This document shows positions 2,097 through 8,807 of a DNA stretch of 64,000 bases, piece by piece. The DNA is from Sporosarcina ureae. Lineage in GTDB: Bacteria > Bacillota > Bacilli > Bacillales_A > Planococcaceae. Below the pieces are notes generated by a model. The model was given only the letters and a program-made list of their open reading frames with translations, searched no databases and had not been told where the DNA came from. The stretch covers positions 2,819,001 to 2,883,000 of the forward strand of contig NZ_CP015109.1 in assembly GCF_002082015.1 (NCBI RefSeq), in the 5' to 3' direction. Positions within the stretch are counted from its first letter, which is position 1. Every line of letters begins with the position of its first letter. A program made the translations under genes and the position numbers.

Positions 2097-2972
2097 ATGC
2101 GTGTAACACAATCGATGCTCTCTCAAAATATGCTGCGGAACTTATCAAGTAGCTATAATAATATGGGGAAATTACAAGAACAACTAAATACAGGAAAAAA
2201 AGTCACTCGTCCATCTGATGATCCTGTCGTTGTGATGAAAAGCCTTGGCTACGGTATGCAAGTTAACAGGGTAGAGCAATATCAAAAGAACTTAGGCGAA
2301 GTCAATAACTGGCTAGATAGCTCGGATGACGCGTTGGACGGAGTAGGACAAGTCCTTCACCGTGCGAGAGAATTAGCCGCTAATGCTGCGAATACAGGTG
2401 CGATGACAGATAATGATAGAAATATGATCAAAGTCGAATTAGAACAACTGCAAAATCAGCTACATGACTTCGCGAATACGAAAGTCGGCGACAAACATAT
2501 ATTCAGCGGGAAAATGACAGATAAACCGTTATTTAATAAAACAACGGGCAATTATGAATCAGGCACATCATTTAAAGAAAATGTATCCATTGAAGTATTT
2601 GATGGGGTAGACTTACGTGTAAGTACGAATGTGTCGGATATGTTTAACAACATCAATCAATTGTTCACGGATATAAAAAATGATTCGGACGATCAGTATG
2701 ATTTTGGTGCTGCACTCGAAGAAATTGATGGGCTACTGAACGATGTTTTAATTAAACGCGCGGATATTGGTGCGCGTTCCAATCGCGCAGAACTTATGGA
2801 TAACCGTCTTCAAATGCAGGAAGGTGCCGCGAAAAAGCAGCGTTCCGAAAATGAAGATATCGATTATGAAAAAACGATCACGGATTTGATTACTTCAGAG
2901 TCCATCCACCGGGCCACATTATCGGTAGGAGCGCGTATTATCCAGCCTTCTTTAACAGATTTCTTGCGGTAA
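2097..2972 (+). CDS. flgL: Flagellar hook-associated protein 3 FlgL
   Basis: FlgL (HAP3) is the second junction ring between FlgK and the flagellin filament. The product is 291 residues, the usual length in Bacillales. It starts MRVTQSMLSQNMLRNLSSSY and carries the flagellin-like N-terminal block with GKKVTRPSDDP. The C-terminal helix has DIGARSNRAELMDNRL followed by ITDLITSESIHRATLSVGARI, the flagellin_C-type ending. It is in an operon with flgK, and a hairpin terminator follows 3 bases after the stop codon. Confidence 0.96.
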   Translation: MRVTQSMLSQNMLRNLSSSYNNMGKLQEQLNTGKKVTRPSDDPVVVMKSLGYGMQVNRVEQYQKNLGEVNNWLDSSDDALDGVGQVLHRARELAANAANTGAMTDNDRNMIKVELEQLQNQLHDFANTKVGDKHIFSGKMTDKPLFNKTTGNYESGTSFKENVSIEVFDGVDLRVSTNVSDMFNNINQLFTDIKNDSDDQYDFGAALEEIDGLLNDVLIKRADIGARSNRAELMDNRLQMQEGAAKKQRSENEDIDYEKTITDLITSESIHRATLSVGARIIQPSLTDFLR

Positions 2973-2975
2973 AAA

Positions 2976-3012
2976 GTAGTGCGGACACGTTGATGGTGTC
3001 CGCTATTTTTAT
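2976..3012 (+). terminator. Rho-independent terminator-like hairpin after flgL
   Basis: GCGGACAC (2981-2988), a 7-base loop and GTGTCCGC (2996-3003) form a perfect 8-bp stem followed by TATTTTT. It lies between flgL and the yviE/fliW/csrA genes, so it could lower expression of the downstream part of the operon. Confidence 0.75.
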
Positions 3013-3039
3013 ATAGGAAAGCAAAGGATGGTGACAGAC

Positions 3040-3594
3040 GTGAATATCCCTCAACTGCAAGTCCAGACAACATCAGCCAAGTTAGGCTTACAGATTAATC
3101 AACCTATACAAGAAATTGAGCAGCCGAAAGCTACTCTGTCTATCGAACAACCAGCGGCGATTATTGAAATGTCTACCACACCGTCGGAACTTTCACTTGA
3201 TACGACAGAAAATCGAGCCGCGCTTGATTTGATGAGCATGTTCAGACGAGGAGACGAAGTCGCGCAGTACAGTCAGCAAAAAGTGCAAGAAGGCATTGCG
3301 CGTAGAGCACAGGAAGGGATGCAACTCGTGAAAATTGAAAATGGCGGTAATCCCTTAGCCGATATGATTAAACAAAACACAGATCGACCAGTAGCTGAGC
3401 TAGGTATCCGCTTTGTAGGAAATCCATTGCAATTAAAAAGAAGCTTTACGCCAAGTCAGTTGAATATGAACGTAACACCACAGAAGCCCATAATAGATGC
3501 GCAGATCAACCAACCCATCCATCACTACACGCCAGGGACTGTAACGGTCAATCTGGAGCAACATTCATCTATAGAAATCGATTGGAAAGTGTAA
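3040..3594 (+). CDS. yviE: YviE-like protein (DUF6470 family)
   Basis: Small soluble protein of unknown function found between flgL and fliW in many Bacillales. The product is about 184 residues, starting NIPQLQVQTTSAKLGLQINQ. It has repeated short beta-like stretches (LGLQINQP, ATLSIEQPAA, DAQINQP) and a central charged helix (MFRRGDEVAQYSQQKVQEGIARRA). The GTG at 3040 is preferred because AAAGGATGGTG lies six bases upstream; the ATG at 3028 is inside that sequence. It lies just downstream of the flgL terminator and upstream of fliW. The family is recognised from context and the QINQP pattern; its role in flagellar assembly is not established. Confidence 0.8.
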   Translation: MNIPQLQVQTTSAKLGLQINQPIQEIEQPKATLSIEQPAAIIEMSTTPSELSLDTTENRAALDLMSMFRRGDEVAQYSQQKVQEGIARRAQEGMQLVKIENGGNPLADMIKQNTDRPVAELGIRFVGNPLQLKRSFTPSQLNMNVTPQKPIIDAQINQPIHHYTPGTVTVNLEQHSSIEIDWKV

Positions 3595-4590: not shown

Positions 4591-6846
4591 ATGAGAATTA
4601 ATCATAATATTGCGGCGTTGAATACACATCGTCAGTTGAATACTGCTACAACTAATCAATCAAAGTCTATGGAGAAATTGGCTTCAGGTCTTCGTATTAA
4701 CAAAGCTGGGGACGATGCGGCTGGACTAGCAATTTCTGAGAAAATGCGTGGGCAGATTCGTGGATTAGACCAAGCTTCTAAAAACTCACAAGATGGTATT
4801 TCAATGATTGCTACTGCTGAAGGAGCATTAAATGAAACGCATGATATTCTTCAACGCATGCGTGAATTAGCTACACAGGCTTCGAATGATACGAATACAG
4901 GAACAGACCGCGGAGAAATTCAAAAGGAAATTAATCAATTAACTTCTGAAATAAACCGAATTGGTAATACTACTGAATTTAACACACAGAAACTATTAAA
5001 TGGTGGGGACGTACCAGCGGATTTAACAGTTACAGCAACTGGTACTGGTGAAGTAACATTTACTGATGCTGTTAAGGAAGTAACTGGAGAAACGACATTT
5101 AAGATAGGTTCAGCTTTATCAAACACTGATGATGTTACCATTGCTGGTGTGGCTTTTACAGCCGCTGCAGGTGCAACTGTTAACGGTGCTGATGATGCTG
5201 CTACGCAAACCACAAAGATTGCTGCTGCCTTAGAAGCCGATAGTGGTTTTAATGAGAAATATACACTTACTGATAATAGTGATGGTACATTTACAATTAA
5301 GGAAAAGGCAGGAAATGCTACAGGAGCAGCTTTGGTAAGTGGTTCTAATGCTAGTGATGTAACAGAAACTAATAAAGTAGCAAGCAAACAAAAAGCCGAC
5401 CCTACACTAGAAATTACAGAAGCATTTGTTGCAGGAGATACATTAAAAGTTGGCGATAGAACCTTTACATTTGGTAATGATGATAACTTTGATGTTAATG
5501 TTAGTAGTGGAAACGCTAATGATGTAGCTAAACAAACAGATGCACTAGCTGCATTATTAGCAAAAGAAAGTGGTATTGAAAGTACAAAATCTAATGGTTC
5601 TGATACTGTTACTATTACACAATCAGGTGGCTCTGGCTTTAAAGCAAGTTTCCAAGTTGGTGCTAATGAAGGACAAAGTATGTCTATTAAAGTTGATGAC
5701 ATGAGAGCAAAAGCACTTGGATTAACTAGCACTGCTGGTGCAGTAGGATTTACTGAAACTAATGCTGTAACTGATGGTACAAATAATGATGATGTTGAAT
5801 CAGCCCTTGATGTTTCTACGCATGAAAATGCTTCAAAGGCTATTACCGTTATTAATAATGCTATTGAAAAGGTATCAGCACAACGTTCTAATCTTGGTGC
5901 ATCTCAAAACCGTTTAGAGCACACAATTAACAACTTAAATACATCTTCTGAAAACCTAACTGCTGCGGAATCTCGTATCCGTGACGTTGATTATGCTTTA
6001 GCTGCTTAAGCAGTAACAAGCACAGTCGTCCTAGCTGGAAACGGCTAGAGATAATTATCGGGTGAATTGCTGGAAACCCCTAAAACTCACTTCCCTACAA
6101 CGTAGCTGGAAACGGCAAGCGTGAATGGTTGAAAAGAAGTGAGATTGGGCAATCAGCAGCCAAGCTCCTGTCTCGAAAGAGTGGAGAAGGTTCAACGACT
6201 AGGATAGACCATCTAAGGCGAAAGCTATGATGATGAAATCCGTAGGTGAAGCAATGTACATCAGCATTGTGAATCCGAAGTGCCCGACCCCTAACAAATC
6301 ATGTTGAGGGTGAAGATATAGTCTAGTCATTTATGAAAGTAAATGTTCGCACGATGGCGAAAGAAATGATGAACCAAACTAAGAACTCTATTCTTAGTCA
6401 AGCAGCACAAGCAATGTTGGCTCAATCTAATCAAATGCCTCAAGGTGTCTTACAACTCTTGAGATAATGATTTGAAGGGCGTCTTATCTGGTAATGGATA
6501 AGAGCATAACTGGGTGAATTGCTGGAACTTCCTAAAGCTTCATCAACCACAACGTAACTGGAAACGGTCAGCGTGAAGGTTTGAAAATGATGAGGATAAA
6601 ACAATGGATAATCAGCAGCCAAGCTTCTGTGAGGAAACTCTGGAGAAGGTTCAACGACTAGGATATACCGTCTAAGGCTTCACGGCTATGACGATGAAAT
6701 CCGTAGGACAAGCAACACCGTCCGAAGCGCCCAGCCCCAAACAGGTTATGCTGTGGGTGAAGATATAGTCTAAGCCTATTTGGAGACAATAGGACTACTT
6801 GCAAGCGAATCAGCAACCGCAGGGCGTTCTACAACTATTACGTTAA
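4591..6846 (+). CDS. hag: Flagellin, coding sequence split by two group I introns
   Basis: Major filament protein. Exon 1 (4591-5991) starts MRINHNIAALNTHRQLNTAT behind AAGGAGG and ends RIRDVD. Exon 2 (6354-6440) encodes MAKEMMNQTKNSILSQAAQA then MLAQSNQMP. Exon 3 (6802-6846) encodes QANQQPQGVLQLLR and a stop. The joined product is about 510 residues. The N-terminal D0/D1 (to about residue 145) and the C-terminal D1/D0 are well conserved. The middle (about 150-400) is a variable D2/D3 insert with two similar blocks (DDVTIAGVAFTAAAG and GDTLKVGDRTFTFGN), like hook-IN motifs. Without splicing of intron 1 the frame stops at 6009 after YALAA, and the D0 helix needed for polymerisation and for FliS/FliW binding is lost. 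The exact 5' boundary of intron 2 is uncertain (6422 or 6440); both keep frame. Confidence 0.85.
5992..6353 (+). ncRNA. Group I intron 1 in hag
   Basis: About 362 bases. The conserved core elements occur in order: P (GGGTGAATTGCTGGAA, 6060-6075), Q (AATCAGCAGCCAAGCT, 6151-6166), R (GTTCAACGACTAGGA, 6190-6204) and S (AAGATATAGTCTA, 6313-6325). The 5' site after GAT (5991) is supported by flagellin homology (RDVD joined to MAKEMM) and by a modest P1 with GTCGTC at 6025-6030, including the expected U.G pair but one mismatch. The P1 loop (about 33 bases) holds an in-frame TAA at 6007-6009. P2 is CTAGC/GGCTAG (from 6031). After S, CATTTA/TAAATG forms P9, and the intron ends in G at 6353, eight bases after P9. 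It encodes no protein. Confidence 0.88.
6441..6801 (+). ncRNA. Group I intron 2 in hag
   Basis: About 361 bases and a clear sister of intron 1, with P (6512-6527), Q (6610-6625), R (6649-6660) and S (6760-6772) nearly identical. P1 pairs exon ATGCCT (6435-6440) with GGGCGT (6477-6482), giving six pairs with U.G at the splice site. This places the 5' site after 6440. Flagellin alignment alone would place it after 6422, 18 bases earlier and in the same frame. P9 (CCTAT/ATAGG) ends eight bases before the terminal G at 6801, as in intron 1. The P1 loop encodes QGVLQLLR and TAA (6465-6467), so the retained intron still finishes a normal flagellin. Confidence 0.85.
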
Positions 6847-6896: not shown

Positions 6897-8807
6897 TTAC
6901 ATAAAATTTTGATTCCGTAAATCTTGAGTCTTATACACTATCGACCAATAACTACGTCCAAGCTGATCGGCAATATGTTGATTAGAAAAGCCTTTTTGTT
7001 TCATATCTATTAATGCTGCTATTTCATCTGATGTATAAGGTCGCATTCTGTCTCTAGAGCTGGTAATGAGTTCATATTCGGGATATTTGTGTAGCCATTT
7101 TTGAGTTTCCATATAGAAACGATATGGCCAGTTAGTTTTATAGCTCATTGCAGGGCATGTGATTGTAATAGGTTGAATATCTTGAAGAAACAATAAAGTA
7201 TCTGCAGTGCGGTTTGTGCGCAAATAATAACCATTTCCATCAGGTAGTTTCGTAAGTGTAAATTCAGCTAGGGTTAAAATTTTGATTTGTACTAAGAGAC
7301 ATTTTAATTCTTCACATGTGAAATTTTGTAGATACAGAGCTATATGAGGAGTGATATATACCTTTTTATTATTGTCATTCACACGGGTAGAAAGCATTAG
7401 TGACCCATCATCCATGTAGATAGTGGCTATACTGTGCAAATCGTTCAAATTGGTAAGTCTATTTTTCGGTAGTAGTTTAACTCTCGACTTGCCTTTTTCA
7501 GTACCATCATAAAAATCAGCTTCTAACTCACTCCACAGATTATTCACTCTTGAACTAATGATATTGCCTTTTGAGGTGAAATAAAGATATGGCTCGAGTT
7601 TCATAACTTTCCAAGCTCGATAATCCTTCTGCTCGATAGAAAAGTGTTCACTGTAATTACTTCTGACCCCTTTAAATTTTGTTTGCATGTGCGTAAGCAT
7701 GCCATCGCCAATAATAGAACCAAGCATAATATTTTGCTGTGTAGTAGAAAGATCATCCAATGTATTCAGCGTTCGTGGTGATATACAATTCTGTTGATGA
7801 AAACACTCTTGCACAATCTCACCTAAAGTTAAACCTGTTGATGCTTGGACGGAACAAAGAACGTCTCGATTTTCTTCCGTCAGGCTCACTTGGTAGCGTT
7901 TGGATTCGTTGTCCTCTTGCCTAGCGTAGTTGAATCTTTGAAAGTTCTCTGTTGTTACTGTGATAGAGGAAGCGTATTGCTGAATCATTTGATTGATTTC
8001 TTCAGTAGGAGAGGGAATAGATATCTGGTTGGGAAGCCGTATAGTTGTCCGCTTCGCAACGGGTTTGCGAACTTCTACATTCTTAATCTTGTAGGAGAAC
8101 ACAAGGTGGATCCAAGGTTCAACCATACCTAGAAAGTATTTGATTTGCAGTTGGTCGTATAGAATAAGTCTTCGTTGACCGTCTACCGCAAACAGGAAAT
8201 TGAATTTGATATTTACTACATATTGCAGTAACCGAAGCTCGTGCTCGGTCCATTGCTCGGTGGAGAGAATCAGTTTCTCCAGCGTGCCGTTTTCTTTCAC
8301 TTTCAAGTGACCGCATTCCTGGTACCACCACGCGAGTGTCTGAGTGGTCATATGCTGTTCAACAAACTCTAGTGGCATGACTTTAGAGCCTTTCCGATAC
8401 CAATCGCAGTACAATGCTTCAGCAGCACAAGGTGCAGATTCAATCATCACGCGCTCTGTAAAGCCGAATTTACTCCGTGTATCCGTAGTTTGTTCCTTCT
8501 TTATAAGAAAGACTGATACATAGGATTGTAACTGTTGATAGCAGGAATGAGCCCATTCACTGTGTTTTATATGGAAAGTGAATCGGAAATATTTGTGGTT
8601 AGTTGGAGAAGACATAATACGTCCACTGCCAAGTAGCAATGCGCAGAGCAGACTATTTAATTTTTGATTAGCAGAAGGCAGTGAATTTATCTTCGGGTTG
8701 CTGTTCTTACAATTGGTAGTGTATTGTTCCTTTGCCGCTTTACTATCTTCAAGTAAAAAGCCGTGAGATCGTGAATTCGAAGAGTATATCAATTTTCTGA
8801 TCGTCAT
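6897..8807 (-). CDS. LAGLIDADG homing endonuclease, two-domain, free-standing
   Basis: 636 residues, starting with ATG behind GGAGGG. The C-terminal half has an intact LAGLIDADG_2-type domain: NIMLGSIIGDGML (about residue 362) and HSIATIYMDDGSLML (about 470). The N-terminal half carries a degenerate copy, LNSLLCALLLGSGRIM (about 50) and QTLAWWYQECGHL (about 155), where the acidic DDG has become ECG. The last 45 residues (YTSDEIAALIDMKQKGFSNQ, then HIADQLGRSYWS) look like a helix-turn-helix. Such enzymes cut at intron-insertion sites and drive homing. It lies outside both hag introns, convergent to hag and 50 bases from its end. This suggests it could mobilise one or both introns in trans, or that its own intron or intein was lost. 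Target and activity are not shown by the sequence. Confidence 0.8.
   Translation of the reverse strand: MTIRKLIYSSNSRSHGFLLEDSKAAKEQYTTNCKNSNPKINSLPSANQKLNSLLCALLLGSGRIMSSPTNHKYFRFTFHIKHSEWAHSCYQQLQSYVSVFLIKKEQTTDTRSKFGFTERVMIESAPCAAEALYCDWYRKGSKVMPLEFVEQHMTTQTLAWWYQECGHLKVKENGTLEKLILSTEQWTEHELRLLQYVVNIKFNFLFAVDGQRRLILYDQLQIKYFLGMVEPWIHLVFSYKIKNVEVRKPVAKRTTIRLPNQISIPSPTEEINQMIQQYASSITVTTENFQRFNYARQEDNESKRYQVSLTEENRDVLCSVQASTGLTLGEIVQECFHQQNCISPRTLNTLDDLSTTQQNIMLGSIIGDGMLTHMQTKFKGVRSNYSEHFSIEQKDYRAWKVMKLEPYLYFTSKGNIISSRVNNLWSELEADFYDGTEKGKSRVKLLPKNRLTNLNDLHSIATIYMDDGSLMLSTRVNDNNKKVYITPHIALYLQNFTCEELKCLLVQIKILTLAEFTLTKLPDGNGYYLRTNRTADTLLFLQDIQPITITCPAMSYKTNWPYRFYMETQKWLHKYPEYELITSSRDRMRPYTSDEIAALIDMKQKGFSNQHIADQLGRSYWSIVYKTQDLRNQNFM

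Follow-up and report, generated by a model that had tools for sequence, protein, structure and literature searches.

Can an intron that stays unspliced be harmless to the gene it interrupts? The question is raised by a hag-type flagellin gene in a 64,000-nucleotide (nt) stretch of the Sporosarcina ureae genome (GCF_002082015.1, contig NZ_CP015109.1, positions 2,819,001 to 2,883,000; hereafter the window). The gene is interrupted by two group I introns, and its last codons occur twice: once after intron 2, as the true ending, and once inside intron 2, as a spare ending. We propose, with a probability of roughly two in three, that intron 2 is a fail-safe intron, whose spare ending would keep the flagellin gene usable without splicing. 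Comparison with relatives provides the support for the anatomy of the gene, its splice site, the covariation of the RNA, coding selection on both endings, and the wide and long retention of the arrangement.

Two endings in one flagellin gene

The features of the gene are collected in Table 1. Both introns match RF00028 over its full length, with 96.9 and 73.6 bits (Rfam gathering score 50), and the match of intron 2 runs from 1 to 253, so that the catalytic core expected of a group I intron is present. Intron 2 separates LA from QANQQP and leaves the last 14 codons of the gene downstream of it. The ends of intron 1 were inferred from the P1 U.G pair, located by eye, and from the RDVD-MAKEMM sequence of intronless relatives; removal of 5992-6353 joins RDVD to MAKEMM.

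Table 1 Features of the flagellin gene and its surroundings (window positions)
Feature	Position	Strand	Description
Flagellin (hag-type) exon 1	4591..5991	+	467 codons, end RIRDVD; Flagellin_N and Flagellin_C matches
Group I intron 1	5992..6353	+	362 nt; RF00028, 96.9 bits
Exon 2	6354..6422	+	23 codons, MAKEMMNQTKNSILSQAAQAMLA
P1 5' strand, GCU.C	6420..6423	+	splice site between 6422 and 6423; pairs with 6477-6480
Group I intron 2	6423..6801	+	379 nt; follows GCT (6420-6422), terminal G at 6801; 73.6 bits
Spare ending	6423..6467	+	14 codons, QSNQMPQGVLQLLR, and TAA; within the P1 hairpin of intron 2
P1 extension, AAUCA	6429..6433	+	spare codons 3-4; pairs with 6468-6472 (UGAUU); covaries across species
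AUGCCU	6435..6440	+	5' exon end proposed by the initial annotation; pairing with GGGCGU not conserved
P1 extension, 3' strand	6468..6472	+	between spare stop codon and guide sequence
Internal guide sequence, GGGC	6477..6480	+	partner of 6420-6423
Exon 3, true ending	6802..6846	+	QANQQPQGVLQLLR and TAA
636-aa LAGLIDADG_2 open reading frame	6897..8807	-	downstream of, and antisense to, the flagellin gene

When both introns are spliced, the predicted product has 504 amino acids (aa) and ends in MLAQANQQPQGVLQLLR. When intron 1 is spliced and intron 2 is kept, the frame reads MAKEMMNQTKNSILSQAAQAMLAQSNQMPQGVLQLLR up to a stop at 6465-6467, and the product, ending in MLAQSNQMPQGVLQLLR, again has 504 aa; the two proteins are thus equal in length and two residues apart, with predicted C-terminal peptides ...AQANQQPQGVLQLLR and ...AQSNQMPQGVLQLLR. 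The C-terminal 91 aa of the form that keeps intron 2 cover positions 1-86 of the 86 positions of Pfam Flagellin_C with 107.7 bits, and the spliced form matches the same profile completely with 108.8 bits, so retention of intron 2 should spare the protein. An initial annotation of the window had anticipated part of this: two complete endings in one gene, a normal flagellin ending on the retained intron, and a retention that the protein would tolerate. Retention of intron 1 cuts the protein at DVDYALAA and a stop, with no spare ending there. The two related introns and the 69-nt exon 2 between them span 5992-6801; skipping of that exon would bring RDVD and QANQQP together in one reading frame. 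The same genome yielded no second hag-type gene, the sole other match being a weak one of 42 bits to a flagellin N-terminus.

The arrangement recurs throughout the genus. We searched 68 genomes for group I introns and flagellins and read the ends of the hag loci; a flagellin was found in 65 of them, and among the 67 loci tabulated intron 2 is present in 34 and intron 1 in 23. All 34 intron-2 loci hold a complete spare ending inside the intron and the true ending after it. A 35th match to intron 2, L103, is a frameshifted copy without both endings intact; with both endings in 34 of 35 matches, the comparison with other hag genes that the initial annotation had called for shows that the arrangement is not due to chance. 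The true ending is QANQQPQGVLQLL followed by R, G or N, and the spare endings vary (QSNQMP, QAQQSP, QAQQSS, QAQQTP, QANTAP, QSNQLPN and others). Intronless genes mostly end in QANQQPQGVLQLLR, the exceptions including QANQAP (L058), QANQQPQAV (L102), LLRYNK (L091) and QTNHQPEGV (the second gene of L055); L041, which has intron 1 only, ends in QANQLP.

Splice site and coding hairpin of intron 2

Where does splicing leave the exon? In the 34 genus loci the guide sequence GGG(C/A) pairs with exon positions -3 to -1 and intron position +1: C-G at +1, U.G at -1 and C-G at -2 in all 34, and at -3 either G-C (30 loci) or U-A (4 loci). The four U-A loci carry TCT for GCT together with GGGA for GGGC, a compensatory change. 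The analysis was then extended to 148 distinct pairs of spare and true endings, drawn from 179 rows, some of whose records are the same strain; one further row, L285, is a remnant and is not counted. The splice-site pairs after 6422 form in 148 of 148 (at -3, G-C in 144 and U-A in 4), with the U.G at -1 that marks P1 of group I introns flanked each time by pairs at +1, -2 and -3, and the terminal G before the 3' splice site (G followed by CAAGC) is equally kept in 148 of 148. Three unpaired -3/-2 cells in the structure count of P1 and P2 given below reflect a shift of the TCT-locus guide by one alignment column, and the in-register count includes them. A 5' splice site after 6422, from which splicing would restore a canonical ending of equal length, is thus well supported by comparison.

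The initial annotation had placed the 5' splice site after 6440, which would make the ending six residues longer, and had itself named beforehand a splice at 6422 that restores the ancestral ending as the outcome that would speak against its proposal; this is the outcome to which the comparison points, with 504 aa for both products. In the window AUGCCU and GGGCGU do form six pairs with a splice-site U.G, and all six recur in 52 of the 148 distinct pairs, but the U.G at 6440 is found in only 7 of the 34 genus loci. Planococcus-type copies (NQMTQ) break the pairing with the guide sequence unchanged, the plain introns described below lack that stretch and keep GCT, C and GGGC around the site, and the longer protein scores only 97.6 bits on Flagellin_C (positions 1-81 of 86), with the end of the profile lost. 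We regard splicing after 6440 as scarcely credible. With a 3' splice site between CCG and CAGGGC, spliced and unspliced RNA would give like proteins. This site was considered and rejected, since true codons 1-7 have the look of translated sequence, with no amino-acid change in the genus, and CAAGC is always preceded by G.

The suggestion that the P1 loop of intron 2 mimics the exon it displaces has held: the spare copy lies inside an extended P1 hairpin. All 34 genus hairpins fold with a GCUC/GGGC-type stem closing around the spare codons, in sequences cut exactly at the P1 ends, which favours the closing stem. Within the hairpin, the partner of spare codons 2-5 is the spacer of 7-12 nt that separates the spare stop from the guide sequence. 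These spacers fit their own spare codons beyond what permuted spacers achieve: none of 5000 permutations reached the observed sum among 51 distinct hairpins, and none of 2000 reached the observed fit when each of the 13 spare-ending types was represented by a single row. In a structure of P1, its extension and P2 over 44 sequences, 88.5% of cells are paired vs 75.4% in shuffled alignments, mostly via P2; the figure for the P1 extension alone is 68.8%, because its pairing register shifts among species.

Selection on both endings and the fail-safe reading

If the spare ending is read by ribosomes, its changes should respect the flagellin frame. In the genus (30 distinct spare and 29 distinct true sequences) the ratio of non-synonymous to synonymous change (pN/pS) over codons 8-14 is 0.080 for the spare and 0.084 for the true ending, and over true codons 1-7 it is 0.000 (29 distinct sequences; 34 of 34 intact model matches). 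In a wider set of 127 pairs (119 spare and 84 true distinct sequences) the values are 0.140 and 0.184 for spare and true codons 8-14, and 0.298 and 0.037 for spare and true codons 1-7. The other two frames of the spare stretch show no synonymous excess (pS 0.273 and pN 0.262; pS 0.078 and pN 0.339; each from the 25 of 30 sequences that are stop-free in that frame).

These figures bear on two further explanations. One holds that the spare ending is never translated, the fold of the RNA alone matters and the protein likeness is a leftover; the spare stretch does fold into a covarying hairpin, but its changes fall mainly on synonymous positions of the flagellin frame (pN/pS 0.08 over codons 8-14) and not of the other two, and all 148 distinct pairs preserve its length, reading frame and stop, which makes this explanation very unlikely. 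The other would have the spare ending as the real gene end now, with an intron that no longer splices and a downstream tail that is a relic. Relic copies do exist elsewhere, in broken flagellins (L269, with a truncated intron, and L297) and in decayed form (L217). However, here the tail is under strong purifying selection: among 29 distinct sequences from the genus, none has an amino-acid change in codons 1-7, and as this holds for 34 of 34 intact model matches, it is no effect of the tail pattern. All 148 pairs retain the terminal G, and the core matches the Rfam model end to end; we consider a relic tail hardly probable.

The two endings also mostly change together. Residues 9-13 differ between them in none of the 148 pairs. 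At residue 8, both endings have G in 122 pairs and both a residue other than G in 25 (identical in 13), with one discordant pair; at residue 14, both have R in 127 and both a residue other than R in 17 (identical in 16), with four discordant. Where a non-standard residue is shared, it is mostly spelt by unlike codons, in 12 of 13 cases at residue 8 and 11 of 16 at residue 14 (Ala-8 8/8, Ser-8 3/4, Gln-8 1/1, Gly-14 6/6, Gln-14 5/10), which makes recent copying unlikely in most pairs. Because purifying selection acts on both endings and residues 8 and 14 mostly co-change, often via unlike codons, both endings are very probably translated.

We suggest the following mechanism. In spliced RNA, exon 2 would be joined to exon 3 and the canonical ending read. 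On unspliced RNA, the ribosome would enter intron 2 and make a near-equivalent ending of equal length, stopping 7-12 nt before the guide sequence and ahead of the catalytic core. Since reading of the spare ending and folding of P1 would draw on the same bases, a transcript would be either translated there or spliced there, not both at once; once ribosomes clear P1, splicing would become possible and the canonical ending would be read. Either route would yield a full-length subunit, so that the gene would be buffered against incomplete splicing and the intron would be nearly harmless. In an ordinary intron, the ribosome would halt at an early stop and release a truncated protein. Bacterial ribosomes trail the polymerase closely and may often reach an intron before its 3' half exists. 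We infer from these patterns that both proteins would be made in the cell, that ribosomes would compete with P1 and that harmlessness would be the selected trait.

Several observations weigh against this fail-safe reading. Intron 2 might seldom be retained, with splicing running to completion; intron 1 lacks a comparable device, and flagellin genes also hold two introns at the site of intron 2 that lack a spare ending. In none of the 148 pairs are the two proteins identical, and hence they are not fully interchangeable: spare codons 1-7 take amino-acid changes that are barred in the true ending (genus pN/pS 0.371 vs 0.000), residue 5 does not track the true ending (it differs in 138 of 148), and tracking has its exceptions at residue 8 (L300) and at residue 14 (four pairs). 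On a tree of 104 introns, each of these two residues offers no more than four well-supported independent contrasts (p = 0.125 each), all pointing the same way except that at residue 14 a mean of 0.2 stays undecided. On the RNA side, exon pairing in P1 is short, at three exon bases, and the compensatory change at -3 is probably a single event. Some 22% of foreign spacers match the native one in folding, the rows that beat at least 90% of foreign spacers number 16 (hairpin) or 15 (duplex) of 51, and the pairs changed on both sides number 7, no better than in shuffled alignments (127 of 500 reach 7).

Never being identical, the two endings might instead be meant to differ, in a regulated isoform switch in which the degree of splicing, set by temperature, growth or translation load, determines the mix of two subunits with unlike C-terminal helices. 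The differences at residues 2 and 5 (110 and 138 of 148 pairs) are in line with this account, as is the statement that splicing of flagellin introns is temperature dependent and linked to motility (Hayakawa and Ishizuka, as cited in passages of PMC4853749). But residues 8 and 14 mostly change together and the endings are of equal length, as expected for equivalence, and the residues that differ, 2-5, fall within the paired part of the P1 extension, so that RNA structure may explain part of their divergence. We rate the switch as unlikely, and as the main rival of the fail-safe reading. Doubtful to a greater degree is a translation-splicing toggle, suggested by the presumed competition of ribosomes and ribozyme for the same hairpin, in which the share of spare endings would report translation density or temperature and the subunit mix would follow. 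If true, it would be a built-in isoform switch without a protein factor, conserved across Bacillus-like bacteria.

Spread, origin and significance of the spare ending

The arrangement extends well beyond the genus. A model of the 5' half of intron 2, which does not see the tail, gave 57 matches of at least 90.8 bits in 261 genomes of the family, followed by a gap down to 50.8 bits; 35 of them are from the genus and 22 from four other genera. In 398 genomes of the class it gave 39 strong matches, 27 of them outside the family, in eight other families. Both endings are present in 22 of 22 matches in the other genera of the family and in 27 of 27 strong matches in other families. A second model, of the 3' junction and blind to the spare ending, was built from 43 junctions, 41 of which come from spare-ending introns; its 45 intron-spanning matches above 60 bits in the class sample are the same 39 with a spare ending, two plain introns and four remnants without a flagellin exon. 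A spare ending is thus present in 39 of 41 site-2 introns within flagellin genes of this sample.

An exact P3 word, searched in named genomes, gave at least 118 matches in at least 116 loci. Among the matches listed, 104 have an open 14-codon spare ending (74 + 30, including the relics L269 and L297), from Bacillus, Oceanobacillus, Planococcus, Exiguobacterium, Paenibacillus, Brevibacillus, Caloranaerobacter and other genera. For eight of the 104 no tail was taken up: six are ended by the locus edge (L232, L263, L265, L273, L283, L288), and the others are L269 and L297. The other 14 matches comprise a decayed copy (L217), a remnant without its 5' part (L285), a copy cut off (L207), the first match of L210, which is intron 1, and ten unrelated places (L205, L234, L235, L239, L267, L290, L295, L309, L310, L315). 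Endings were recognised by text patterns that prescribe 14 codons and, in most sets, VLQLL and QAN..PQ, which carries a risk of circularity; all site-2 matches that came from the models or the P3 word but did not pass the patterns were therefore inspected, and the conservation counts are not a product of the search patterns alone. Intactness of the upstream flagellin frame was checked for part of the named loci.

In some decaying flagellin fragments and intron remnants, intron 2 is itself shortened or decayed: L269 and L217 (Oceanobacillus), L297 (Litchfieldia) and L285 (Neobacillus). L269, whose intron is cut short with the spare ending left, was considered as a natural experiment and set aside, having no open frame of at least 150 aa and another flagellin ending upstream. 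L058 was likewise considered, as a gene that might have shed the intron but kept its spare ending, and rejected on inspection, since its ending resembles the normal tail.

Was the spare ending copied from its own gene, or did it arrive with the intron? The initial annotation had taken the near-duplicate as a copied flank that records the arrival of the intron. This is not borne out for the present genome: over 56 loci, the spare copy agrees with the tails of other species at 66.7% of bases and with its own tail at 68.0%. Recent copying of the tail into the intron is rejected on this near equality and on the unlike codons at 23 of 29 shared non-standard residues. On this comparison and on the tree described below, the spare copy is old and travels with the intron.

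Two plain introns at the same site, L196 (MLAQLLVA, then stop) and L197 (MLAQFEQVA, then stop), have no spare ending and a short P1, and serve as natural controls for the spare ending. That they keep the pairing of GCT and C with GGGC is as expected if the spare ending is an insert in the P1 loop. In a quick tree built from the 104 spare-ending introns, the two plain ones and 13 intron 1 copies, the introns of site 2 stand apart from intron 1 (support 99), and the two plain ones are nested among those with a spare ending, so that two changes between having and lacking the copy suffice; the tree has open forks and long rows, the placement of L177 and L197 is unsure, L197 sits on a long branch, and the program warned of long branches meeting. 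The two plain introns have apparently lost the spare ending, and the tree is most simply read as a single origin that preceded the spread, followed by two losses.

The long LAGLIDADG_2 frame next to the gene looks like a fusion of two free-standing homing endonucleases, one per intron. Among the 67 genus loci, its N half accompanies intron 1 (12 of 23 loci with the intron, 5 of 44 without; p = 7e-4) and its C half intron 2 (16 of 34 with, 1 of 33 without; p = 3e-5), p values that are optimistic as the loci are related; the cross pairs are not significant (p = 0.56 and 0.09). Eight of the 74 loci fetched are left out of this table, loci with several genes are counted once, and short contigs may account for a missing endonuclease. 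L058 (genome G066) combines an intronless flagellin with both endonuclease halves downstream (best identities 78% and 69%). Intron 2 of the window holds no open reading frame of more than 60 codons. That of L177 (between about 1806 and 2834) has an inner open frame of 242 codons between stops, LAGLIDADG-like by motif, and the spare and true endings of this locus share an unusual LPQSVLQLLG. Phage introns are similar to parts of the intron core (205 records from phages, with a best cover of 46%). The S. ureae genome has a third group I intron (G000:C1:52806-53234, corresponding to L106, about 2807-3235; 86.9 bits), whose host gene, judged by eye from the flank, reads like a ribonucleotide reductase.

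The nearest analogues are C-terminal duplications in fungal mitochondria and a group II intron of Clostridium tetani, as far as the parts of the sources consulted go. In the former, mobile endonuclease reading frames carry replacement ends of atp6, atp9, cox2 and nad3 (Glomus) and of atp6 (Allomyces); as here, a gene end that is diverged in DNA and alike in protein comes with an inserted element, mobile there and putatively so here (PMC3630166). There, the inserted end replaces the native one, and the native atp6 and cox2 ends are no longer translated according to that source, whereas here both ends are under selection, the copy forms part of a ribozyme's P1 helix, and the native tail, far from being dispensable, is constrained more than the copy. 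C.te.I1 of C. tetani is, as intron 2 may be, a bacterial self-splicing intron that yields several surface protein isoforms, including one from the unspliced transcript; it is a group II intron that works by alternative splicing reactions, and the abstract mentions no copy of the displaced exon (PMC3919590). Phage Twort orf142 resembles the present gene in its tandem, related group I introns flanking a short exon, and undergoes exon skipping, with no spare ending mentioned in the passages of PMC10136302 seen. Group I introns that lie, like those described here, in flagellin genes are known from thermophilic Bacillus and Geobacillus, where they reportedly self-splice in a temperature-dependent manner (Hayakawa and Ishizuka 2009, 2012, via PMC3984707 and PMC4853749); the passages that cite them in these two sources make no mention of a spare ending. 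In the open full-text literature, as far as it was seen, we found no description of a spare ending in a flagellin intron; the primary flagellin-intron papers were outside this scope and we claim no priority.

In-frame stops in many group I introns have been viewed, in the part of PMC3984707 consulted, as evidence that ribosome stalling may aid intron folding. The price of such stops would be a truncated protein; here, the stop would serve as a proper end of the gene. Annotation pipelines may close such flagellins at the spare stop and overlook the spliced product, and other introns near gene ends are worth checking for the same device. The proposed fail-safe intron would offer a specific explanation, open to test, of the survival of self-splicing introns in bacterial genes that are heavily translated.

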